The notes below the pieces were generated by a model. The model worked only from the letters and a program-made list of their open reading frames with translations, had not been told where the DNA came from and ran no database searches. A stretch of DNA of 64,000 nucleotides from Desulfoferula mesophila (GTDB taxonomy: Bacteria > Desulfobacterota > Desulfarculia > Desulfarculales > Desulfarculaceae): contig NZ_AP028679.1 in NCBI RefSeq assembly GCF_037076455.1, forward strand, positions 2,061,501 through 2,125,500. Reading direction: 5' to 3'. The translations under genes were made by a program, and so were the position numbers. This document shows, one piece after another, positions 40,318 through 53,119 of this stretch (the first letter of the stretch is position 1; each line of letters starts with the position of its first letter).

Positions 40318-40353
40318 AAAAAAGACCGCCGCACCCCGAGGGATGCGGCGGTC
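40318..40353 (-). terminator. Rho-independent terminator of the metVF-glutamate synthase operon
   Basis: On the minus strand the stem GACCGCCGCA (40353-40344) pairs with TGCGGCGGTC (40333-40324) around a ten-base loop and is followed directly by T6 (40323-40318). It lies 20 bases after the stop of the amidotransferase gene. Confidence 0.92.
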
Positions 40354-40373
40354 CGGTCTGGTTGGTTGGTCGG

Positions 40374-43037
40374 CTACTCGGGAATGGCGTGCTTGGGGGA
40401 TACCGTTTTCTTGCCCGGGCCCACCTTGCGGTAGACCTCGTGGGGGGCGCGCTTCACGCCGTCCACGGTGAGCAGGTCGTCCACGCTGATTCCGAAGTGG
40501 CGCTCGTTGGCCTCCAGGTAGGGGAGGATCAGCTCCCAGTCCTGGTCGGTGAGCTCGAAATAAGCCCCGCCGTTGAGCTGCTGGTCCACCAGCTTGTGCT
40601 CGGGGTCGCGCACGTAGATGGCACCGCCGCTGGCCAGGGAGAACAGGTTGGATCCGGGGTAGGGGGCCTCCAGGGGCACCACCTTGCCTTGCTTGTCAAA
40701 GGTGATGCCGTTGAGCACCACGAAGCCCCCGCCGTTGTAGGGGTCGCCGGCCATGAAGGATTCGGCCAGGAAGTCCAGGCAGGTGCCGTTGATGACCACC
40801 CGGGGACGGCCCACGGCGTTGATCAGGGGCCGGCCCGCGCCGTTGCCCATGATGAAAACCTGGCCGCCCTTGGCCCCGTACATGAAGGCCTGGCCCACGT
40901 CGCCGTGAATCACCAGGGTGCCGGCCTTCAGGATCTGGCCCAGCTGGTCCTGGCCGTTGTCGTGGATCTGAATCTCCAGGCCGTCCATGCCCGAGGCGAT
41001 GTAGTCGCCGGAGGCGCCGTAGATGTCGAAGCGCACCTCCTCGGTCTCCGGGCCTAGGCCGCAGCCGTGGAAACGCTGGCCCTTGAGGCCGTAGACGATG
41101 AAGCGCTTCCAGCCCAGGTGATAGGCCTGCACCTCCAGGCGGGCATCGCACTCGTCGCCCTCGGGGGGGAAGTGGTGGGCGTAGACCACCAGCACCTTTT
41201 CATCGCCGGCCGGCGCGCGCAAATCGCCCTTGGTTTCCCAGTCGATACGGGCGTAGCGGGTGCCTTTGTTCTCGGCGATGGCCGGGGTGCGGTCCAGGAT
41301 GCCGTTGATGGCGGTGCGCAGCAGCTGCAGCACCACCGAGCGCTTCAGCTCGCCGGTGTCGTAGCGGCGGTCGTTGAGCAGGGTCAGGACCTCCAGGGCC
41401 CACTGGGTGCCCTGGTCGCTGGCCTGGGCCACCTTTTCCACCTGGGCGATGAGCCAGCGCACCTGGGCGAAGCTCCAGGAGGCCATGGCCGAGGCCGCCT
41501 GCTCGTATACCGCCATGGGCTCGGAGCCCTCGGGCGCGGCGTTCAGCGCCTCTTCCAGGCTCTGGGCCTGGTCCGGGACGCTGGTGACCTCTTGGGGATC
41601 AAAGCGCCACTGGCCGGAGTCCACCTCGATGGGGGTGCCGAACTTGTCCATGCAGGTGAGGTCGTAGCCCTGGCCGTTGCCCTGCACGTTGAACAGGAAG
41701 GCGCCGCCGTCGGTGGAGCTGCCGCCGCGGGCGTTCCAGTAGCGGTCGGCCACCAGGCGGAAGCGGGGATCTTCCTGGTTCAGGGAGAGCAGGGTGGCGT
41801 CGATGGCCTGCTTTTCCGAGCCCACCAGGCCGATGGACACGTCGCCGTGTTGCAGGGCGAAGACCTGGGGACGCAGCATGGAGGTGTCGGTGATGCCCAG
41901 AAGCTGGTACAGGTCCTTCTCCGGGTTGGAGCGGGCGATGATGAAGAACCAGGGGCCGTCCGGGCTGCCGTGCATGTGCATGGCCTGGATGGCCCTGTAC
42001 ACCGGCTTCTTCTGGGCGGACAGGCGCTCGAAGTCCAGCTCGGTGGTGGGGGCCATGGCCTCGATGACGTACTCCAGGGGGTAGTGGTACACCCTGGTCC
42101 ACAGGTCGAACAGCAGGACCGCCACCTCGGTGTCGGTGAGGAACTGGGTGGCGATGCCGTGCTGGCGCAGGTACTCGCTGACGCTGTAGTAGTTGGCGAA
42201 GTCGCCGTTGTGCACCAGGGCCTCGTTTAGCCCGATGAAGGGGTGGCTGCCGCCGGGGTGCCAGACGCGGCCCTTGGTGGGGTAGCGCTGGTGGGCGATC
42301 CACACCTTGGCCTTGAAGTCGTCCATGCCGTAGTACTGCACCACCGTCTCGGCGTAGCCCACCACCTTCATGATCACCAGGTTGCGGGCGTGGCTGAGCA
42401 CGAAGGCGCGCTTTTCGCCCAGGCTGGTGTAGAAGGTGGCGTTGAGGCGGTTGGTGTTGCGGTAGATGAACTCGTCTTCCAGGGCTCGGCCGCTCAGCTC
42501 GCCCAGGCCCTCTTCGGCGGCGAAGGACTCCAGGGCCGCCGCTTTGGGCCGCACGAAATAGCGCACCACGTCCGGAGGCTTCACCTCCAGGCCGAAATCG
42601 CGGTAGTCGCCCTGGGTCTCAACCCTGGCCTTGTGGTGGATGTCCAGGTAGGGGCTGACACACTGGGCCTCGACCTCACCCTCGGCCTCGGGGTCCAAAA
42701 GGGCCACCTGCAGGATGTAGTCGTCTTTCAGGGTGCCGGCGTCCACGCCCAGCTGTTGGGGGTCCAGACAGGCCGCGGCGATGCCGCCGCCCTTGCCGTT
42801 GCCCCGGTTGTGCATCTGCACCGACGGTTCGAATATATGGCGTCCCCGCACGGGCACGTTGGCCGCGAAACCCACCACGCCGCAGCCGCCTTCTTCGGCG
42901 GCCTTGTGGGGGCTAAGCGGAGGAGCGTCGGCCGACGCCCTACGGCGGGAGGCCAGGATGGCCTCGGTCATGCGGGTCAGCTCCTCCCGGGAGGGGAGGC
43001 GGCTTTGTCGTCCTTGGGCTTGGAATAGGCTGGCCAC
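40374..43037 (-). CDS. Glutamate synthase subunit: class II glutamine amidotransferase plus GXGXG domain
   Basis: This protein of about 887 residues has an Ntn-type glutamine amidotransferase domain beginning at Cys52 (GGCGVVGFAAN) with HQRYPTKGRVWHPGGSHPF and HNGDFANYY active-site loops, and a C-terminal GXGXG beta-helix domain (GASGDYIASGMDGLEI, GDVGQAFMYGAKGG). It lacks the FMN synthase domain, which is the preceding gene, so glutamine hydrolysis and the synthase core are on two chains as in archaeal-type GltS. Cys52 must be freed by removal of a 51-residue propeptide. The GTG at 43037 has AGAGGA upstream and avoids the overlap of the longer frame. Confidence 0.88.
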   Translation of the reverse strand: MASLFQAQGRQSRLPSREELTRMTEAILASRRRASADAPPLSPHKAAEEGGCGVVGFAANVPVRGRHIFEPSVQMHNRGNGKGGGIAAACLDPQQLGVDAGTLKDDYILQVALLDPEAEGEVEAQCVSPYLDIHHKARVETQGDYRDFGLEVKPPDVVRYFVRPKAAALESFAAEEGLGELSGRALEDEFIYRNTNRLNATFYTSLGEKRAFVLSHARNLVIMKVVGYAETVVQYYGMDDFKAKVWIAHQRYPTKGRVWHPGGSHPFIGLNEALVHNGDFANYYSVSEYLRQHGIATQFLTDTEVAVLLFDLWTRVYHYPLEYVIEAMAPTTELDFERLSAQKKPVYRAIQAMHMHGSPDGPWFFIIARSNPEKDLYQLLGITDTSMLRPQVFALQHGDVSIGLVGSEKQAIDATLLSLNQEDPRFRLVADRYWNARGGSSTDGGAFLFNVQGNGQGYDLTCMDKFGTPIEVDSGQWRFDPQEVTSVPDQAQSLEEALNAAPEGSEPMAVYEQAASAMASWSFAQVRWLIAQVEKVAQASDQGTQWALEVLTLLNDRRYDTGELKRSVVLQLLRTAINGILDRTPAIAENKGTRYARIDWETKGDLRAPAGDEKVLVVYAHHFPPEGDECDARLEVQAYHLGWKRFIVYGLKGQRFHGCGLGPETEEVRFDIYGASGDYIASGMDGLEIQIHDNGQDQLGQILKAGTLVIHGDVGQAFMYGAKGGQVFIMGNGAGRPLINAVGRPRVVINGTCLDFLAESFMAGDPYNGGGFVVLNGITFDKQGKVVPLEAPYPGSNLFSLASGGAIYVRDPEHKLVDQQLNGGAYFELTDQDWELILPYLEANERHFGISVDDLLTVDGVKRAPHEVYRKVGPGKKTVSPKHAIPE

Positions 43038-43057
43038 GATGGCGGTTCCTCTCTCTT

Positions 43058-45982
43058 TCAAGCCTTTTTCTGATAATCCAGATGGGTGAGCAGGTCGCTG
43101 CGTCCCACCAGGTCCCGAACACTCTTGAGCCCCAGGCGCCACAGGATGTCCCGCAGCTGGATGGCCCAGGAGTTGAACAGGTTGATCACCCGCTGGCTGC
43201 CCCAGTCGGCGTCATAAGCCGCCGAAAGCACGGGGTCGGTGGTGGCGATGCCCCGGGGACAGCCCCGGCCGGACTCGCAGTTGGCGCAACGGATGCACTC
43301 CAGGGCCACCATGTCCGCGGTGCCGCAGACGATGCCGTCGGCGCCCAGGGCGATGGCCTTGGCCACGTCCCAAGCGGTGCGCACTCCGCCGGAAGCGATC
43401 AGGGTGATCTTGTCGCGGATGCCCTCCTCGGTGAGGAAGCGGTGCACCATGGGGATGGCGTACTCGATGGGCATGGCGATGTTCTTCTTGGCGATGTCCG
43501 GTGCCGCCCCGGTGCCGCCGTAGCTGCCGTCCAGGTGCACGATGTGGGCCCCGGCGTAATAGGAGCCCACGGCCACCATGTCCACGTCCACCGGGGTGGA
43601 GACCTTCACCGAGACCAGGGTGGTGGGGTTGACGTGCTTGATCCAGTCCACGTGCTTCTTGTGGTCTTCCACCGAATACACGGAGTGGAAGGGGAAGGGG
43701 CTGAACAGGGAGGTGCCCACCACGGCCTCGCGCATCTTGGCCACCGCCTCGGTGACCTTGTCGCCCAGCAGGTGGCCGCCCAGGCCGGGCTTGGCGCCCT
43801 GGGCGTATTTGAACTCCACGATGCGTACCCGCTGGATCGTATCCTCGCGCACCCCGAACAGACCCGTGGCCACCTGGGTGATCACGTTGTCGGAGTATTT
43901 TTCCAGCACGGGCGGGAAGCCACCCTCACCGGTGCAGGTGAAGGAGTTCATGGAGGAGTAAGCCCGGGCCCGGCTCTCCATGGTGGCCTGGCTCACCGAG
44001 CCGAAGCTCATGCCGCCGCCGTAGACCGGGAAGCCGATCTCCACCGGAGGCCGGCCGTCGTCGTCGCGCCGGTTCAGGGGCAGGGAAAGGTCCACGTCCT
44101 GAGGGCCGAAGCTGGCGTCGGGCGGCTCGGGCGGGAACACTATCTCCATGCGGTCGAAGCCGCCGCCGCTGGCGCCCTTGCGGTACTCCAGATTTTCCTC
44201 GGGCGGCTTGCCGGTCTCGGCCTGGATCCAGGTGGCCACCAACAGGTCGGCGGGCCAGCGGGGATCGCCGAAGGTCTTCCACACCGGGTTTTGCCCCACC
44301 CGAATGGCTTCCACCGGACAGGCGTCGCCGCAATAGGAGCCGATGGAGCGGCAATAATCCGCGCCCCGGCAATGGCGGCTGCGCGGGGCCAGCATCTTCT
44401 CGCCGGCCTTTACGTGCACCCCGAACTGGCAGACCTCGGCGCATTTGCCGCAGGCCACGCAGGTGTTGAGGCGCTCGACCTTGAACTTGGTCAGGGCGTT
44501 GCGGTAGCGCGAGGGCGCCGTGGCGATATTGACCGGCAGGGCGCTGTAATCGCCGGGAGCCAGCGGAGGGGCCGCGGTCGGCTTGGCGGGGGGCAGGTCG
44601 GTGACCCGCTCGCCGAAGATGGGCGCGAAGCTCATCTTCTCCAGGTCCTCGAAGACCATGGCCCGGCCCATCTCGCCGCGCAGGCGGCGCACCTCGCGGA
44701 TGCCCATGGCCCCCATCAGCTCGATGAGCTGGGAGTGGAAGGCGCCCAGCAGGTTGACCACGCGGCGTTTGCCCTGCTCGGCGTCGATGCCGTCCAGGTT
44801 CACCGGGCAGTCGAAGCCCTCGGTGCAAGAGCCGCACAAGCGGCACTCCATGGCCACGTTGAGCACCAGGCCCAGGCTCACGGCGTCGGCGCCGCAAAGG
44901 ATGGTCTTGGCCACGTGCTCGGCCAGGGCCACCCCGCCGCCGGCCACCAGGGTCACCTGGTCGCGGCAGGCCTCGTCCACCAGGCGCAGGTGCACCTCGC
45001 GCAACAGGTCGGTGATGAAGGTGCCCGCGGCCTTGCCCAGGCCCTGGCCCTTGTAGCCGGCCTGCAGGTAGAGCACCTCGGCTCCGGCCAGGGCCAGCTC
45101 GGCGGCGCGGTCGGCCGCGTCTTGGTCTAGAGCCAGGCGCACGGCCACCACCAGGTCGGGCCTGAGCTCTTTGAGCTTGGCCACGTCGTCCATCACCCCG
45201 GGGGTGTCGATCATCTCGGCCATGACCACCCCGTCCAGGGGGCTCAGGTTGGCCGGAACGCCGTCCAGGCGCACGATGAGGTGGGGGCGCAGGTCGGCCA
45301 ACAGGTCGGCGGCCTCCTCATAGGTGGCCACGGCCAGGGTCCTGCCCTCCTTGGCCGCCAGGGCCAAGGCCCGGCGGGTGCCGGGGCCCGCCTTGCCCCA
45401 GGGGGGGATGTCCAGGATCATGGGCGTGGGCAACTCCACCATGGGCGGCATGTCCACGTCCAGGGCGCCGTCTTCGTCGAAGAACAGGCGGTCGGGGCGG
45501 CGGCCCAGCTCGATGGTGGTGCTGATGTATTCGCGGCCGTGGATGCCGTCGCGGGTGGGCCGCACGATCTCGCTCATGTCGGTCCACATCTTGTCAAAGC
45601 CGGGACCGGCAAAGGGGCCGCGATAGCCGGCCCCGGACACCGGGATGGCGCCGGTGGTGGCCTGCTTCCACAGGGTGCCGATGATGTCCGGCCGCCAATA
45701 ATCGTCGCCCATGGCCTCGAACTGGGGGTTCACGGCCCGGGAGAGGATGCCTTTTTTGCATTCCTGCACGCAGCGCATGCAGCTGATGCACATGGAGTCG
45801 GTGGTGTCCACCACCTGCCCGGCGTCAAAGGTCTTCTTGCGATAAACCTCGTAAATGCAGCTATCGCGCTTGACGCACTTCAGGCAGCCCAAACAGCCTT
45901 CCGTCTCCATGGCGGCGATTTTGGCCACCGGAGTGAAACGCGGTTGGGTGGGGTCCACCTCGACGTGATACTTTTCGCCCAT
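43058..45982 (-). CDS. Glutamate synthase FMN/iron-sulfur subunit with internal duplication
   Basis: This 974-residue protein carries, in order: two [4Fe-4S] motifs (Cys30/33/36/42 and Cys65/68/71/75), a partial TIM-barrel copy (about 275-440) with a C-x2-C-x2-C-x5-C set at 380-392, ferredoxin-type cysteines (508-519 and 538-555), and the FMN glutamate synthase barrel (about 640-960) with VSVKVSTPVDVD, HLDGSYGGTGAAP and a second C-x2-C-x2-C-x5-C set at 896-908. It should condense ammonia with 2-oxoglutarate using electrons from a ferredoxin-like donor; no GltD-type NADPH subunit is adjacent. It lies between metF and the amidotransferase gene. Confidence 0.85.
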   Translation of the reverse strand: MGEKYHVEVDPTQPRFTPVAKIAAMETEGCLGCLKCVKRDSCIYEVYRKKTFDAGQVVDTTDSMCISCMRCVQECKKGILSRAVNPQFEAMGDDYWRPDIIGTLWKQATTGAIPVSGAGYRGPFAGPGFDKMWTDMSEIVRPTRDGIHGREYISTTIELGRRPDRLFFDEDGALDVDMPPMVELPTPMILDIPPWGKAGPGTRRALALAAKEGRTLAVATYEEAADLLADLRPHLIVRLDGVPANLSPLDGVVMAEMIDTPGVMDDVAKLKELRPDLVVAVRLALDQDAADRAAELALAGAEVLYLQAGYKGQGLGKAAGTFITDLLREVHLRLVDEACRDQVTLVAGGGVALAEHVAKTILCGADAVSLGLVLNVAMECRLCGSCTEGFDCPVNLDGIDAEQGKRRVVNLLGAFHSQLIELMGAMGIREVRRLRGEMGRAMVFEDLEKMSFAPIFGERVTDLPPAKPTAAPPLAPGDYSALPVNIATAPSRYRNALTKFKVERLNTCVACGKCAEVCQFGVHVKAGEKMLAPRSRHCRGADYCRSIGSYCGDACPVEAIRVGQNPVWKTFGDPRWPADLLVATWIQAETGKPPEENLEYRKGASGGGFDRMEIVFPPEPPDASFGPQDVDLSLPLNRRDDDGRPPVEIGFPVYGGGMSFGSVSQATMESRARAYSSMNSFTCTGEGGFPPVLEKYSDNVITQVATGLFGVREDTIQRVRIVEFKYAQGAKPGLGGHLLGDKVTEAVAKMREAVVGTSLFSPFPFHSVYSVEDHKKHVDWIKHVNPTTLVSVKVSTPVDVDMVAVGSYYAGAHIVHLDGSYGGTGAAPDIAKKNIAMPIEYAIPMVHRFLTEEGIRDKITLIASGGVRTAWDVAKAIALGADGIVCGTADMVALECIRCANCESGRGCPRGIATTDPVLSAAYDADWGSQRVINLFNSWAIQLRDILWRLGLKSVRDLVGRSDLLTHLDYQKKA

Positions 45983-46027
45983 TATAAAAATCCCGCTCGT
46001 CTGCTGGCGTTGAGCCCGGGCCGGAGT

Positions 46028-46969
46028 CTAGACCTCCGGACGCGGGGACAGGCCTGCCTGGTTGATTATCTCGGGCAAGAGCTCCTCGGCCTCGATGGCC
46101 TGCAGATGCACTCCCTTGACCCCCGTAAGCTCCCTGACCTGTTCGATCAGCTCGATGGTCACCTTGATACCCTCGGCCTGAGGGTCGGAGGCGCCTTTCA
46201 TACGGTCGATGAGCTCCTGGGGAACCACCACGCCGGGCACGTTCTTGTTCATGTAGTTGAGCATGCCCGCCGAACGGGGCACGATGAGCCCCGGCAGGAT
46301 GGCGGTTTTTTCGGTCAGGCCCATGTCCACCGCCTTGGCCAACTGCTCGGCAAAGGCCTTGATGTCGTAGACGGCCTGGGTCTGGATGAAGTCCGCGCCC
46401 GCGGCCACTTTCTTGGCCAGGCGCAACACGCGAAACTCCACCGGCGGTCCCAGGGGAGTCCAGGCCGCGCCGATGAAGAACTGCGGCTTGCTGGTCAGGC
46501 TGTCGCCCCCGGCCTGCAGGCCCTCGTCGCGCATGTTCTTGATGATGTTGATCAGCTGGATGGAGTCCACGTCGTAGACTCCCTTGGCTCCGGGATGGCC
46601 CTTGAGCTTGCCGCTGGCCCCGGCGCCCTGGTGGTCGCCGCTGATGGCCAGGATGTTCTTCAGCCCCAGGGCGGCCGCGCCCAGCAGGTCGCTCTGCATG
46701 GCGATGCGGTTGCGGTCCCGGCAGGTCATCTGGGCCACCGGCTCCAGCCCGGCGTCCAAGAGGATCTTGGAGCCGGCGATGGAGGACATGCGCACCACCG
46801 CGGTCTGGTTGTCGGTGACGTTGTAGGCGTCGGCAATGCCCCTGAGCACTTCGGCCTTTTTGAGCACCTCGTCCACGTCCGGGCCCCGGGGCGGGCCCAC
46901 TTCGGTGGTGAGGGCGAACTGGCCGGCGGCCAAAACCTTCTCTAACTTGGTTCCCGCTTTGAGACTCAT
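46028..46969 (-). CDS. metF: Methylenetetrahydrofolate reductase
   Basis: This 313-residue FAD TIM-barrel enzyme of the MetF family has FALTTEVGPPRGPD near the start and YNVTDNQTAVVRMSS near residue 52, the short form common in anaerobes. It interconverts methylene- and methyl-tetrahydrofolate, a step of methionine synthesis and of the Wood-Ljungdahl pathway. The ATG overlaps the metV stop as ATGA, with GGGAGGA upstream, so the MetV-MetF pair is translationally coupled. In MetVF enzymes MetV brings electrons from an iron-sulfur partner instead of NADPH. Confidence 0.93.
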   Translation of the reverse strand: MSLKAGTKLEKVLAAGQFALTTEVGPPRGPDVDEVLKKAEVLRGIADAYNVTDNQTAVVRMSSIAGSKILLDAGLEPVAQMTCRDRNRIAMQSDLLGAAALGLKNILAISGDHQGAGASGKLKGHPGAKGVYDVDSIQLINIIKNMRDEGLQAGGDSLTSKPQFFIGAAWTPLGPPVEFRVLRLAKKVAAGADFIQTQAVYDIKAFAEQLAKAVDMGLTEKTAILPGLIVPRSAGMLNYMNKNVPGVVVPQELIDRMKGASDPQAEGIKVTIELIEQVRELTGVKGVHLQAIEAEELLPEIINQAGLSPRPEV

Positions 46970-47637
46970 GACCGCAGATCCTCCCGCAGCATCCTCTTGG
47001 GCCCTCCGGCCGGCGAGTTGGACCAGTCCTTGGGAGGACGCACCTTGGTGAGGTCCTCCAACCGGCCGCGGGCGGTGGCCCGCTCCACGATCAGCCGCCA
47101 GATACAGGGCGTGTCCTCGTTGATCTCACACATTCCGTTGGTGCGGGTGCCGCCGCAGGGGCCGTTTTGCAGGCTCTTGGCGCAGCGGGCCACCGGGCAC
47201 AGGCCGAAGGTCAGCCCCAGCACGCAGTCGCCGCAGGCGGCGCAACGGCTGGTCCACAGGCCCGGCTCCTCACGGATGCTCAGGCTGGTGGTGTTGACTC
47301 CGGGGTAGAGCGAGGTATCGGCATAGCGCTCGGCCACCAGCTGCATGCCGATGCCGCAGGCCACGCTGACGATGGCGTCGGCCTCGGCCGCCGCCTCGGC
47401 GATGTCCTCCAGGAACTCGGGCTCGCACTGGCGCTCCAGGGTGGCGCTTTTCACCTCGATGGGGTTGCCGTCGTTTTGCATGGCCATGGCCAGCAGGGGC
47501 GCCAAGGTCTCCACCTCCCGCTCTCCGCCGGCGGCGCACTCGGCCACGCAGGTGGCGCAGCCGATTACCAGCACCTTTTTATGGCCGCGCAGGTAACCCA
47601 CCATCTCCTCAATGGGCTTCCACTCAGCGGTAATCAT
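46966..47637 (-). CDS. metV: MetV, iron-sulfur / zinc subunit of methylenetetrahydrofolate reductase
   Basis: This 223-residue protein matches the MetV family (annotated as methylenetetrahydrofolate reductase C-terminal domain): GCATCVAECAAGG near residue 26 and the dense cysteine block CAACGDCVLGLTFGLCPVARC followed by NGPCGG and CIW near 135-180. The cysteines are expected to bind [4Fe-4S] clusters and zinc and to relay electrons to MetF. Upstream by six bases is an MvhD-like gene, the kind of protein that links MetVF to other electron carriers in Moorella-type complexes. Confidence 0.9.
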   Translation of the reverse strand: MITAEWKPIEEMVGYLRGHKKVLVIGCATCVAECAAGGEREVETLAPLLAMAMQNDGNPIEVKSATLERQCEPEFLEDIAEAAAEADAIVSVACGIGMQLVAERYADTSLYPGVNTTSLSIREEPGLWTSRCAACGDCVLGLTFGLCPVARCAKSLQNGPCGGTRTNGMCEINEDTPCIWRLIVERATARGRLEDLTKVRPPKDWSNSPAGGPKRMLREDLRS

Positions 47638-47643
47638 CGGCGC

Positions 47644-48072
47644 TCAAACTCCTTTCATGGGGTTGGGCCCCAGGGCCCGCACGGCCTCGGCCCTCTGGCC
47701 GGCCATCTCCATTAAATCATCCAGGCTAAGGCCCGCGCCCCGGTCTAGACCCAGGCGTTCGGCGCCCATGCCAACCTGCTCCAAAAGCCCCCGGCCGCGG
47801 GCAATGCGCTTTTCGGCCCGGTTGCTGCCCACCAGATGTTGGCAGGCCTTCTCGGGACAAGCCGCTATCTGCACCCCGTCGGCGCCCTTTTCCAAAAGGC
47901 GCATGAGGTGGGGAAGCTGCACCTTGCTGCTACAGGGCAGCAGCACCAGGCGGACTCCGAAGCCCTCACCGGCGCGCTGCCCTTGCACCGGCTTGGCCTC
48001 GGCGGCCAAGCTCTGGCGGCAATAGAGCAGGGTGATCTGCGGCTGGAAATCTGCGGTCGAATTATTGGCCAT
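47644..48072 (-). CDS. mvhD: MvhD / HdrA-associated delta-type hydrogenase iron-sulfur subunit
   Basis: This 142-residue protein fits the MvhD (FlpD) family: an N-terminal LLYCRQSLA, LLPCSSKVQLPHLMRLLEKGADGVQIAACPEKACQHLVGSNRAEKR. Four cysteines (in YCRQ, PCSS, ACPEKAC) could hold a [2Fe-2S] cluster; the first position has a single Cys instead of the usual CxxC pair. In methanogens and acetogens MvhD passes electrons between hydrogenase or dehydrogenase and HdrA. Here it begins an operon with metV, metF and glutamate synthase and no hdrABC. SD GGGAG lies 13 bases ahead of the ATG, separated from it by T6. Confidence 0.85.
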   Translation of the reverse strand: MANNSTADFQPQITLLYCRQSLAAEAKPVQGQRAGEGFGVRLVLLPCSSKVQLPHLMRLLEKGADGVQIAACPEKACQHLVGSNRAEKRIARGRGLLEQVGMGAERLGLDRGAGLSLDDLMEMAGQRAEAVRALGPNPMKGV

Positions 48073-48269: not shown

Positions 48270-48291
48270 GGCAAACACGGCAACCTTTGCC
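48270..48291. promoter_or_regulatory. Palindrome spanning the predicted start site of the mvhD-metVF-glt operon
   Basis: GGCAAA and TTTGCC are exact inverted repeats ten bases apart. The right arm abuts the -10 hexamer of the minus-strand promoter and the pair brackets the expected start near 48285, a typical repressor position. It does not match the GGWA/TWCC pattern of NrpR. Confidence 0.45.
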
Positions 48292-48320
48292 TTTATGACA
48301 GAGGATTTCCATATTGTCAA
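48292..48320 (-). promoter_or_regulatory. Promoter of the mvhD-metV-metF-glt operon
   Basis: On the minus strand a perfect TTGACA (48320-48315), a 17-base spacer and CATAAA (48297-48292). Transcription would begin near 48285, leaving a leader of about 210 bases before mvhD. Confidence 0.6.
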
Positions 48321-48462
48321 CACCCACCCCGCGCGGCTTCAGCAATGGCTGCTATCCGTTGATTTAATTGGTTAACCGGCTATTACGCCCCCTGGGGGGT
48401 GAAACGCGCCGCGCCAGGGTGTTGAGCGCACGGGAATAGACGGCAATTTTGCCGCATCATGC

Positions 48463-48540: not shown

Positions 48541-49527
48541 GTGGACGAACGCAGCAGAAGAAAAATCCTCGATGTACTAAGAGTGCTGTCGGAATCGGAC
48601 AAGCCCCTGGGCGGCACCCGCATTGCCCACGCCCTGGCCCTGGCCGGCAAGGACATGAGCCAACGGACCATCCGATACTACCTTAGCATAACCGACCAGG
48701 AAGGCCTGACCCAGCAGGTGGGCCGCCGGGGACGCAAGCTGACCGCCGAGGGGCGCCGGGAGTTGGAAACCGCCTACGTGGTCGACAAGGTCGGCTTCGT
48801 GGCCGCGCGGGCCGAGGCCCTGATCTACGGTATGGACTTCAAGCTCCGGCAGGGCCGGGGCAAGGTGGTGGTGAACCTTTCGGTGCTCAGATCCCAGGAC
48901 GTGCCCCGGGCCAAGGAGGTGATGCGCCGGGTGTTCCAGGCGGGCTATTCCCTGGGCGACCGCCTGCTCGTCGGCCGCCCCGGCCAAAAGGTGGGCTCCT
49001 ACACCCCGGAGCCCGATGAAGTGGTGGTGGCCACGGTGTGCTCCATCGCCATCAACGGGGTGATGCTCGATGAAGGCGTGCCCATGACCAACCGCTTCGG
49101 CGGGCTCTTACAGGTCAGCGAGCACAAGCCGCTGCGCTTTACTCAGATCATCAATTACGACGGCACCACCCTGGACCCATTGGAGATTTTCATCAAGGGC
49201 CGCATGACTTCGGTCAGCCAGGCCGTGGCCACCGGCGAGGGAGTCATCGGGGCCAGTTTTCGCGAGATTCCCGCCCCGGCGGCGGAAAAGGCCCGCCGCC
49301 TGGCCGGACGCCTGGAGAAGGCAGGCCTGGGGGCCATCATCCTGATCGGCCGGCCCGGCCAGCCTCTCTTGGAGGTACCCCTGGCCACCGGACGGGTGGG
49401 CATGGTGGTGCGGGGCGGGCTCAACCCCATGGCCGCTGTGGAGGAGGAAGGCATAGTCACCACCAACCGCGCTTTTTCACAACTCCTGCCCTTTGAACAA
49501 CTCGACCGTTGGGAGGATGTGTTGTGA
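48541..49527 (+). CDS. nrpR: NrpR-family nitrogen regulator
   Basis: This 328-residue protein has an N-terminal winged helix-turn-helix (about 1-65, IRYYLSITDQEGLTQQVGRRG) and one NrpR/DUF128 ligand domain (about 75-310, with FGGLLQVSEHKP and VRGGLNPMAAVEEEGI). In methanogens NrpR represses nitrogen-assimilation genes and is released by 2-oxoglutarate. Methanococcus NrpR has two DUF128 domains; this form has one, like NrpRI of Methanosarcina. The start is GTG behind GGAAGGA. It is divergent from a glutamate synthase operon and overlaps the potassium channel gene by four bases. Confidence 0.9.
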   Translation: MDERSRRKILDVLRVLSESDKPLGGTRIAHALALAGKDMSQRTIRYYLSITDQEGLTQQVGRRGRKLTAEGRRELETAYVVDKVGFVAARAEALIYGMDFKLRQGRGKVVVNLSVLRSQDVPRAKEVMRRVFQAGYSLGDRLLVGRPGQKVGSYTPEPDEVVVATVCSIAINGVMLDEGVPMTNRFGGLLQVSEHKPLRFTQIINYDGTTLDPLEIFIKGRMTSVSQAVATGEGVIGASFREIPAPAAEKARRLAGRLEKAGLGAIILIGRPGQPLLEVPLATGRVGMVVRGGLNPMAAVEEEGIVTTNRAFSQLLPFEQLDRWEDVL

Positions 49528-50252: not shown

Positions 50253-50348
50253 AGCCGACTGGGCGGATAAATGGCTTTCTTGGTAAGTCTGGTTGACAAT
50301 CGCATGGGTATAAAACAAGATGGGCATGACTCTAGAAGGGCGATACGT

Positions 50349-51833
50349 ATGCATCTTTGTTTGGCGAGTCTGAACAAATCAAGACTGATCACGGCCTGTC
50401 TGGCGGTTTTTCTCTCGTTGCTTGTGACCGGCTGCATGAAAGTGGGGCCGGACTACCAGCCTCCCAAGAGCCAGGTTCCGGCCAGTTGGCAGGAATCGAG
50501 CGATCCCGCGCTCCAAAAAAAGCCCGCCGACCTGACCCGTTGGTGGACCGTGTTCAACGACCCCGAGCTGACTTCCCTTATTAAACGTTCCGACAGCGGC
50601 AACCTGGACCTCAAGTCCGCGATGTCCCGGGTGAAAGAAGCCAGGGCCTACCTGGGGGTGGTGCTTGGTCAAGAGCTGCCCTCCGTGGACGCCCCGGCCT
50701 CGGCCCTTCGCCAGCAGTACAGCGAAAACGACCTGAGCCAGAGCGGTCTTTTGGGCAACAACATTTCCCTGGGCCTTTCCGCCAGCTGGGAGATCGACCT
50801 CTTCGGCCGGGTAAGGCGTCAGGTAGAAGCCGCCCAGGCCGACTATCAGGCCAGCCAGGAGGACCGGGCCGGGGTGATGGTGACCCTTTATGCCCAGGTG
50901 GCCCAAACCTATCTGGTGGTGCGCACCCTGCAGGCGCGCATCTCGGCCACCAGCGAGAACATCGAATCCCAAAAGGGAGTACTGAAGCTTACCCAATCCC
51001 GCTTCAAGTGGGGCTTGGCCACCGATCTGGACGTTTCCCAGGCCCAGACGGTGCTGGGCAGTTCCCAGGCGGAGCTGCCGCCGATCAAAAGCAATCTCAA
51101 CCAGGCCATGAATACCTTGGCCTTGTTGCTGGGGCTCCCCCCCAACTCCTTGGCCCCGGAACTCATGCGAACCCAGCCCATACCCGTGCCGCCGGCCGAG
51201 GTGGCGGTGGGCGTGCCGGCCGACCTGTTGCGCCAGCGGCCGGACATCAGGCGCTCCGAGCGCCAGCTCGCCGCGGCCACCGCCCGCATCGGGGTGGCCA
51301 CCGCCGACCTGTATCCGCGCTTCAACCTGATCGGCTCCCTGGGCACCGCGGCCATGACCGGCGGCGATCTTTTCTCCGGGGGCAGCACTTTCTTTTCCAT
51401 AGGCCCCACCATGTCTTGGAACCTGTTCGCCGGTGGCAGCATCCGCTCCCAGATAAAGGTGCGCGACGCCCAGACCGAGCAGGCGCTTTTAAGCTATGAA
51501 AGCACGGTGCTCACCGCCTTGAAAGAGGCGGAGGACGCCATGGTGGCCTTTGAGCAGGAAAAGCTGCGCCAGCAATATTTGAAGACCACGGTGGCCGCCT
51601 CGCGGCGTTCCTTGAAGTTGGCCATTCGTCTCTATAAAGAGGGGTTGCAGGACTTCCAAAGGGTGTTGGACGCCCAGCGCAACCTGTTCGACTACGACAA
51701 CGCCTTGGCCGCTTCCAGGGGACAGACGGCCATTAACCTGGTCAACATCTACCAGGCCCTGGGCGGCGGCTGGGACCCGGCGGCTAAACGCGAGGCCCCG
51801 CCCAACAATGCATTGGAAACGGCCCTCCGCTAA
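50349..51833 (+). CDS. Outer membrane efflux lipoprotein of an RND system (NodT/OprM family)
   Basis: This protein of about 494 residues has a lipoprotein signal ending in LLVTGC, followed by the NodT-type start MKVGPDYQPPKSQVP and two outer-membrane efflux protein repeats (first around 70-240, second around 280-460, with ADLLRQRPDIRRSERQL). It forms the TolC-like trimeric exit duct. The frame opens further upstream, but the ATG at 50349 directly begins a good signal sequence. It is first in an OMF-adaptor-pump operon, whereas mexAB-oprM places it last. Confidence 0.92.
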   Translation: MHLCLASLNKSRLITACLAVFLSLLVTGCMKVGPDYQPPKSQVPASWQESSDPALQKKPADLTRWWTVFNDPELTSLIKRSDSGNLDLKSAMSRVKEARAYLGVVLGQELPSVDAPASALRQQYSENDLSQSGLLGNNISLGLSASWEIDLFGRVRRQVEAAQADYQASQEDRAGVMVTLYAQVAQTYLVVRTLQARISATSENIESQKGVLKLTQSRFKWGLATDLDVSQAQTVLGSSQAELPPIKSNLNQAMNTLALLLGLPPNSLAPELMRTQPIPVPPAEVAVGVPADLLRQRPDIRRSERQLAAATARIGVATADLYPRFNLIGSLGTAAMTGGDLFSGGSTFFSIGPTMSWNLFAGGSIRSQIKVRDAQTEQALLSYESTVLTALKEAEDAMVAFEQEKLRQQYLKTTVAASRRSLKLAIRLYKEGLQDFQRVLDAQRNLFDYDNALAASRGQTAINLVNIYQALGGGWDPAAKREAPPNNALETALR

Positions 51834-51865
51834 GGCGGGGCCGCGGACCCTCAAGGGAATTTGCC

Positions 51866-53119
51866 ATGAAAATGGGGAAAAGTAGACAGGCGCTCATCGC
51901 CTTGGCCCTGGCGGCCGGGCTCACGCTGGCGGTGGCCGGTTGCGACCGGGGAAAAGAAAAAATGGCCGCGCCGCCGGCGCCCGTGGTCACGGTGGCCACG
52001 CCGGTAACGCGCACCGTCACCGACTACGCGGTGTACACCGGCAACACCCAGGCCCAGTTCTCGGTGGACATAATGGCCCGGGTGGAAGGCCAGCTCAGAA
52101 GCGTCAATTTCGATGTGGGCAGCCATGTCAAAAAGGGGCAACTGCTCTTTGTCATCGAGCCTGAGCCCTATATGGCCAAGGTGGACATCGCCAAGGCCAA
52201 CCAGGCGGTGGCCCAGGCCCAGTTGCAACTGGCCCAGGCGACCCTGGTGCGTAAGGAAAACGCCTTCAAGGACCGCGCGGTGAGCGAGGTCGACGTGATC
52301 CAGGCCAAGGCCCAGGAAGCCGAGGCCCAGGCCCAGGTGCAGGCGGCCAAGGCCCAATTGGAGCGCACCCGCATCGACTACGGCTACACCCACATTCACG
52401 CCCCCATCAGCGGCCGGGTATCGCGCAACCTGGTGGACGTGGGCAACCTGGTGGGAGCGGGCCAGACCACCAAGCTGACCTCCATCGTCATGGACGACCC
52501 CATTTACGCCTATTTCACCGTGGCCGAATCCGACGTGATGAAATACCGCGCCAACCAGCGCGACCGGGAAGTGCCCCTCAACGCACAAGGCTATCCCCTG
52601 GCCAGCCTGGGGGCGGCCATTGATCAGGATTATCCTCACAAAGGCTATTTGGACTGGATCGATAACAAGGTGGATCCCGGCACGGGCACCATTCAGATGC
52701 GCGGGGTGTTTCCCAACTCCGACGGGGTGCTGGTTCCCGGCTTGTTCGTGCGCGTTCAGGTGCCGGTTGGCGTTATAAAGGACGCCATCCTCACCGAGGA
52801 CCGGGCCCTGGGGCGCGACCAGCGGGGCACCTACCTGCTCGTGGTGGACCAAGACAACGTGGTGCAGTATCGGCCGGTGGAAACCGGGCCGGTGCAAACG
52901 GACGGCAAGATAGTCATCCTCAAAGGCCTTCAGCTCAAGGACCGGGTGATCATCAACGGCTTGCAAAGGGTGCGGCCCGGCGCCAAGTGCACCCCCATGA
53001 CTCCCGAGCAGGTTAAGCAAGCCCAGGCCGCCGCCCGCGAAAAAGCCATGGCCCAGCAAAAGGGCAAGGCGCCGGAAGCGGCGGCGACCAAGGAAAAGCC
53101 CGCCCAGGGCGCAAAGTAG
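51866..53119 (+). CDS. RND efflux periplasmic adaptor (membrane fusion protein)
   Basis: This 417-residue protein has a lipoprotein signal ending in LAVAGC (cysteine near residue 26), a biotinyl-lipoyl-like barrel (VEGQLRSVNFDVGSHVKKGQLLF), a coiled-coil hairpin (about 100-150, ALA/GLN-rich) and a beta-barrel domain (YGYTHIHAPISGRVSRNLVDVGNLV). It joins inner pump and outer duct as in AcrA/MexA. It starts 32 bases after the outer membrane gene and ends 10 bases before the pump gene. Confidence 0.94.
   Translation: MKMGKSRQALIALALAAGLTLAVAGCDRGKEKMAAPPAPVVTVATPVTRTVTDYAVYTGNTQAQFSVDIMARVEGQLRSVNFDVGSHVKKGQLLFVIEPEPYMAKVDIAKANQAVAQAQLQLAQATLVRKENAFKDRAVSEVDVIQAKAQEAEAQAQVQAAKAQLERTRIDYGYTHIHAPISGRVSRNLVDVGNLVGAGQTTKLTSIVMDDPIYAYFTVAESDVMKYRANQRDREVPLNAQGYPLASLGAAIDQDYPHKGYLDWIDNKVDPGTGTIQMRGVFPNSDGVLVPGLFVRVQVPVGVIKDAILTEDRALGRDQRGTYLLVVDQDNVVQYRPVETGPVQTDGKIVILKGLQLKDRVIINGLQRVRPGAKCTPMTPEQVKQAQAAAREKAMAQQKGKAPEAAATKEKPAQGAK

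Follow-up and report, generated by a model that had tools for sequence, protein, structure and literature searches.

An operon of mvhD, metV, metF and a two-chain glutamate synthase, and its proposed electron input

Nitrogen enters biomass mainly by way of glutamate. In the window, the whole 64-kb stretch of DNA analysed here, a glutamate synthase is encoded directly behind genes for an MvhD-like protein, MetV and MetF, and neither an hdr nor a gltD gene was found among the open reading frames of the operon with Pfam. This arrangement raises the question of how such a synthase is supplied with electrons, and of what the methylene-THF reductase genes have to do with it.

The operon and its glutamate synthase

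According to the open reading frame list and a Pfam domain search, the genes are ordered mvhD-metV-metF-gltNC-gltGAT, all on the minus strand, with the following features:

48292-48320, minus strand: promoter TTGACA-N17-CATAAA, from an alignment of six genus loci
47644-48072, minus strand: mvhD-like gene (MvhD/FlpD, 142 aa; Pfam FlpD, 2.9e-20)
46966-47637, minus strand: metV (223 aa; DUF5981, 2.3e-33)
46028-46969, minus strand: metF (313 aa; MTHFR, 5e-37), methylene-THF reductase catalytic subunit
43058-45982, minus strand: gltNC (974 aa; Glu_synthase, 3.9e-108, two stretches), Fe-S/FMN glutamate synthase chain
44588-45982, minus strand: GltN half of gltNC (residues 1-465), 2x[4Fe-4S] module and catalytically silent barrel
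43061-44587, minus strand: GltC half of gltNC, Fe-S module and FMN catalytic domain
40374-43037, minus strand: gltGAT, ~887 aa (GXGXG, 1e-11; GATase_6, 4.6e-7)
40323-40354, minus strand: intrinsic terminator past gltGAT, 14-pair stem then T5

The preliminary description of this DNA had proposed a single, hdr-free operon of mvhD, metV, metF and a two-chain glutamate synthase, and tight spacing, a conserved promoter and a terminator confirm it. The 6 bp between mvhD and metV and the ATGA overlap of metV and metF were as described; the gap between metF and gltNC measured 45 bp instead of 58 bp, and the 20 bp between gltNC and gltGAT holds only with the gltGAT start at GTG 43037. The gltGAT frame opens at 43142, and with the start taken at GTG 43037 the chain is therefore ~887 aa long and not 922 aa as given before; its Cys nucleophile is preceded by a propeptide-like leader. 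The upstream promoter was also borne out, its TTGACA and CATAAA boxes being invariant in 6/6 aligned genus loci, though a strict sigma-70 scan gave no promoter match ahead of the operon, and Rfam gave no riboswitch. The strong terminator reported past the last gene corresponds to the 14-pair stem and T5 read from 40354 to 40323.

The 974-aa GltNC chain is an internal tandem duplication of GltN and GltC, which are separate genes in other lineages. The enzyme contains the core of a glutamate synthase (GOGAT), namely an FMN domain with GEGG, GAKPGxGG and the Cys cluster, and a class II glutaminase with an N-terminal Cys and a GXGXG domain; the GATase and GXGXG domains reside on the second chain, GltGAT. 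Across loci, GltC carries GAKPGxGG in 107/107, TGEGG in 100/107 and the Cys cluster in 106/107 sequences, and the glutaminase motif GGCGV of GltGAT is found in 87/88. The catalytic motifs occur in 0/121 GltN sequences, the GltN loop TDMSEIxRPTRDGIHGRE is near-invariant (120/121), and the Cys residues of GltN, the paralogue of GltC, align with A. brasilense GltS. AlphaFold models were obtained for GltN alone (pLDDT 83) and for the whole GltNC chain (pLDDT 81, pTM 0.84). Since the latter can be superposed on A. brasilense GltS from residue 448 to 1184 (Z 31.4, rmsd 3.7 over 611 residues), GltN is, by predicted fold, the equivalent of the GltS central domain and GltC that of the FMN domain, each with a ferredoxin module. 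GltN was considered as a wholly new adaptor, and this was rejected because its structure is that of the central domain of GltS, to which a ferredoxin module has been added. In L116, what looked like a fusion of MvhD with GltN and GltC proved to be a shadow frame.

As in GltBD of Azospirillum brasilense (PDB 1EA0, 2VDC), all four GltB domains are present, and the glutaminase Cys, the FMN-domain motifs and the Fe-S Cys cluster are conserved. The operon synthase differs from GltBD as follows: First, it consists of two or three chains with the GATase and GXGXG domains separate (here 974 and ~887 aa) instead of a single ~1500-aa alpha chain. Second, it has ferredoxin modules on both barrels. Third, no GltD is encoded with the large subunit, and MvhD/MetV/MetF or a GlcD-like module stands in front. 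The ferredoxin-GltS of Synechocystis (PDB 1OFD) likewise has no GltD, and GltNC matches its fold almost as well as that of GltBD, but it is one continuous chain that has neither additional ferredoxin modules nor partner genes, and ferredoxin use by the operon synthase is presumed. The split archaeal-type or F420-linked glutamate synthases, among which FrhB-GltS is mentioned (PMC9012536), are likewise divided into separate chains and have likewise exchanged the electron-input subunit, using FrhB where the operon has MvhD/MetVF; one relative has a split GltS broadly of this type (L064) next to NrpR and without MvhD. The known hdr-linked form, HdrABC-MvhD-MetVF (PMC5736913, PMC6085437), shares the gene order of MvhD, MetV and MetF, whereas the glt operon has no Hdr and continues with glutamate synthase genes, its MvhD lacks the second CxxC/U residue and Glt-linked MetVF fall on their own branches. 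We class the enzyme as a glutamate synthase whose partnership in the operon is unusual and widespread; in the open-access literature searched, no glutamate synthase linked to MvhD or MetV was found described.

Partners of gltN across loci

The neighbourhood is not limited to this genome: it was found again at 113 distinct loci spread over many phyla. These comprise the 80 best of at least 558 confirmed relatives from a GltN search, a set biased toward the operon type of the window, together with family loci and a phylum-wide sample. GltN proper is present in ~58/247 genomes of the phylum sample, and a distant, mostly fused form in ~9. Record titles of GltN carriers name Deltaproteobacteria/Thermodesulfobacteriota, Chloroflexi, Planctomycetota, Nitrospiria, Verrucomicrobia, Fibrobacteria, Armatimonadota, Actinomycetota and others, of which single labels may be wrong because most carriers are MAGs, many of them incomplete or mislabelled.

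Gene order was counted in the 89 loci whose upstream sequence extends over at least 2.5 kb. Upstream of gltN, mvhD is found in 88/89, metV in 68/89 and metF in 60/89 loci; the pattern is mvhD-metV-metF in 55, mvhD alone in 18, mvhD-metV in 10, other orders in 5 and none of these genes in 1. Since chance would place mvhD ahead of gltN in ~1% of loci (a rough estimate based on 12 FlpD copies in 4.5 Mb), the observed adjacency is not due to chance. The constant partner of gltN is MvhD and not MetVF, which is optional because mvhD stands upstream without metVF in 18/89 loci. A GltD-like gene was found in none of the glt operons examined, and lies within the flanks in few loci only.

The sole locus without mvhD (L254) has a GlcD-like FAD protein with a 4Fe-4S dicluster domain directly ahead of gltN, and one family carries that module fused N-terminally to GltN-GltC-GltGAT in a 2528-aa chain. 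Furthermore, metV occurs without metF in 11 loci, with 12/13 MetV Cys invariant, and sits 12-24 bp from gltN in 10/11 of them. The GlcD-like swap and fusion, together with a metF-less metV that keeps its Cys, argue that the slot ahead of gltN would be an electron-input module, in which MvhD and MetV may act as carriers and MetF is optional.

The metF-less metV lies between mvhD and gltN in L108, L136, L138, L143, L158, L161, L168, L221, L227, L229 and L234. The 2528-aa chain, encoded at L215:1966-9552 (minus strand) and also in L216-L220, joins a GlcD-like FAD dehydrogenase, Fe-S, GltN, GltC, GATase and GXGXG, and adjoins glnA in most of these loci. Two mvhD copies surround metV-metF ahead of gltN in L222, L247 and L253, and in L253 these are preceded by an hdrA in the same orientation, so that this locus may stand midway between the hdr-type and glt-type arrangements.

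Among 82 aligned MvhD sequences, Cys 18, 47, 72 and 77 are kept in all complete rows, and the second residue of the hdr-linked CxxC/CxxU pair is variable in Glt-linked MvhD; of the expected [2Fe-2S] ligands, four Cys are conserved and one usual CxxC/U pair position is lost. We propose that MvhD is a small Fe-S electron-transfer subunit serving as the electron entry of the glutamate synthase, and that MetV, the Fe-S subunit of a MetVF-type methylene-THF reductase, is the electron carrier of the complex. The operon encodes MetV and a MetF with the catalytic residues of this reductase type, and because the residues conserved in hdr-linked MetVF are also retained in the Glt-linked proteins, the Glt-linked reductase is probably active. 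A quick tree of 90 MetVF rows with two long branches requires 2 label changes between Glt-linked and hdr-linked forms, versus ~30 in shuffles.

Electron supply of the synthase

The host genome is a single contig of 4.48 Mb, where the window locus is the only strong and clear glutamate-synthase match; operon-type GltS is the only strong GltS in 20/32 other carriers checked. MetV is present in four copies and FlpD in twelve. The other three MetV copies lie in hdrA-mvhD-metV-metF clusters, each with its own mvhD, so hdr is absent from the glt operon and present elsewhere in the genome; almost all other metVF sets in the class have this hdrA-linked arrangement. The preliminary description had missed these three sets, as well as the gltNC duplication and the NrpR-like neighbour described below. 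Several FlpD copies have an in-frame TGA; in the hdrA-linked mvhD of L029 and L031 it stands at the CxxC position and is likely selenocysteine, and the window mvhD differs.

We consider it moderately likely that the enzyme is a GltS variant of anaerobes with the NADPH-oxidising GltD replaced by a swappable Fe-S input, here MvhD-MetV, and with MetF as a second head on one electron supply. MvhD, with MetV, would take electrons from a low-potential carrier, for which ferredoxin seems the likeliest donor because a MetVF enzyme of Clostridium ljungdahlii is reported to depend on ferredoxin (PMC8515935). From there the electrons would travel along the ferredoxin modules carried by GltN and GltC and reach the GltC FMN, where 2-oxoglutarate would be aminated with ammonia freed from glutamine by GltGAT. 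MetF would be a second catalytic head on the MvhD/MetV wiring, so that methyl-THF and glutamate would both be formed from one electron supply. The sequences themselves show which genes are present, their catalytic motifs and conservation, the swapping of modules, the regulator gene and the palindromes; a physical complex, its donor, the electron direction, simultaneous use and the operator function of the palindromes we infer from them. The shared electron supply raised in the preliminary description gains from the near-invariant mvhD, the metF-less metV and the GlcD-like swap and fusion, with the correction that the constant part is MvhD and not MetVF, and the comparison suggests that nitrogen and one-carbon assimilation may draw on one electron supply. 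Points against the proposed variant are that gene order and fusion fall short of proving a complex, that the only fusion seen carries a GlcD-like module and not MvhD, that MetVF is dispensable in the 18/89 loci with mvhD alone, that MvhD docks on HdrA in known systems, and that a gene of the glutamate-dehydrogenase family is present in the genome.

NADPH could instead reach the synthase in trans through NfnB or another GltD-like protein, MvhD-MetVF being an unrelated set that shares the operon. The earlier claim that this GltS has no NADPH subunit of its own holds for the operon, and no dedicated gltD was found in the genome. The genome does contain 14 Fer4_20 matches, and its best-scoring GltD-like protein, NfnB, scores above the cut-off of TIGR01316; among the Fer4_20 proteins scanned, none reaches the cut-offs of TIGR01317/01318. 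NfnB adjoins NfnA and a formyl-THF-ligase-like gene at a distant locus, GltD-like genes are nearly absent around the glt operons, and mvhD adjacency in 88/89 loci would be left unexplained, which makes this route very unlikely.

The methylene/methyl-THF couple lies at ~-200 mV, and by textbook potentials could reduce the 2-oxoglutarate/glutamate couple, so that MetVF might oxidise methyl-THF and pass electrons via MvhD to GltS. The GlcD-like dehydrogenase, probably an electron donor, holds the mvhD position in the family carrying it, which fits such a flow. However, where metF or metVF is missing another donor is required in any case, some carriers belong to phyla that are not known to oxidise acetate, and the operon MetF is the only MTHFR found in one MAG, which suggests a reductive, biosynthetic direction. 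We regard this reversal as highly doubtful.

An extension of the proposed variant, in which MetVF-MvhD-GltNC-GltGAT would form a supercomplex with bifurcating or confurcating electron sharing via a GltN Fe-S/flavin hub, appears quite unlikely. If true, it would energetically couple exergonic glutamate synthesis with methylene-THF reduction, the first case of flavin-based electron coupling in a glutamate synthase. For the swappable-input variant itself, comparative genetics would name candidate donor subunits for the GltS of strict anaerobes and make the input side of GltS a swappable module. Some metV, metF and mvhD genes read as Wood-Ljungdahl energy genes would then belong to nitrogen assimilation, affecting metabolic inference from MAGs.

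Probable control by an adjoining NrpR-like regulator

Next to a nitrogen regulator, the operon would link nitrogen assimilation with one-carbon chemistry of the Wood-Ljungdahl kind; the features are:

48541-49527, plus strand: NrpR-like nitrogen regulator, divergent from the operon (Pfam NRD1_2, 1.2e-76, and HTH_12)
48441-48454, minus strand: palindrome CGGCAAAATTGCCG, on the nrpR side, candidate NrpR operator
48279-48291, minus strand: palindrome GGCAAAGGTTGCC, directly past the -10 box, candidate NrpR operator

The regulator has the HTH_12 and NRD domains of the NrpR type, and most genomes of the family have an NrpR-like gene close to their GltS locus, also those that contain another GltS type. 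The two palindromes flank the operon promoter, and GGCAA-N2-3-TTGCC has two matches in the window, both between nrpR and mvhD. GGCAA-N2-4-TTGCC occurs near nrpR or the operon start in 13/16 loci examined, among them family members in which the GltS next to NrpR belongs to a different type; these palindromes are candidate NrpR operators, and the operon is probably controlled by the adjoining regulator. A genome scan found no wider regulon of CGGCAA-N2-4-TTGCCG sites, because the two other genomic sites fall in coding regions.

Co-regulation of methyl-THF and glutamate synthesis, the simpler suggestion made earlier, is supported by the single operon, the regulator and the operator-like palindromes. 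Co-regulation could be the whole explanation, the NrpR-like regulator switching both biosyntheses together with no shared electrons; glnA within 4.5 kb upstream in 24/89 loci and the conserved MetV and MetF residues agree with this. Yet it leaves unexplained the near-constant mvhD, a carrier without known biosynthetic use, the persistence of metV without metF, and the GlcD-like redox module that replaces mvhD or is fused in one lineage, and we judge it unlikely as a full account.

Beyond the regulator, window positions 50271-53119 (plus strand) encode, by eye, an outer-membrane efflux protein-like product followed by an RND-type membrane fusion protein.
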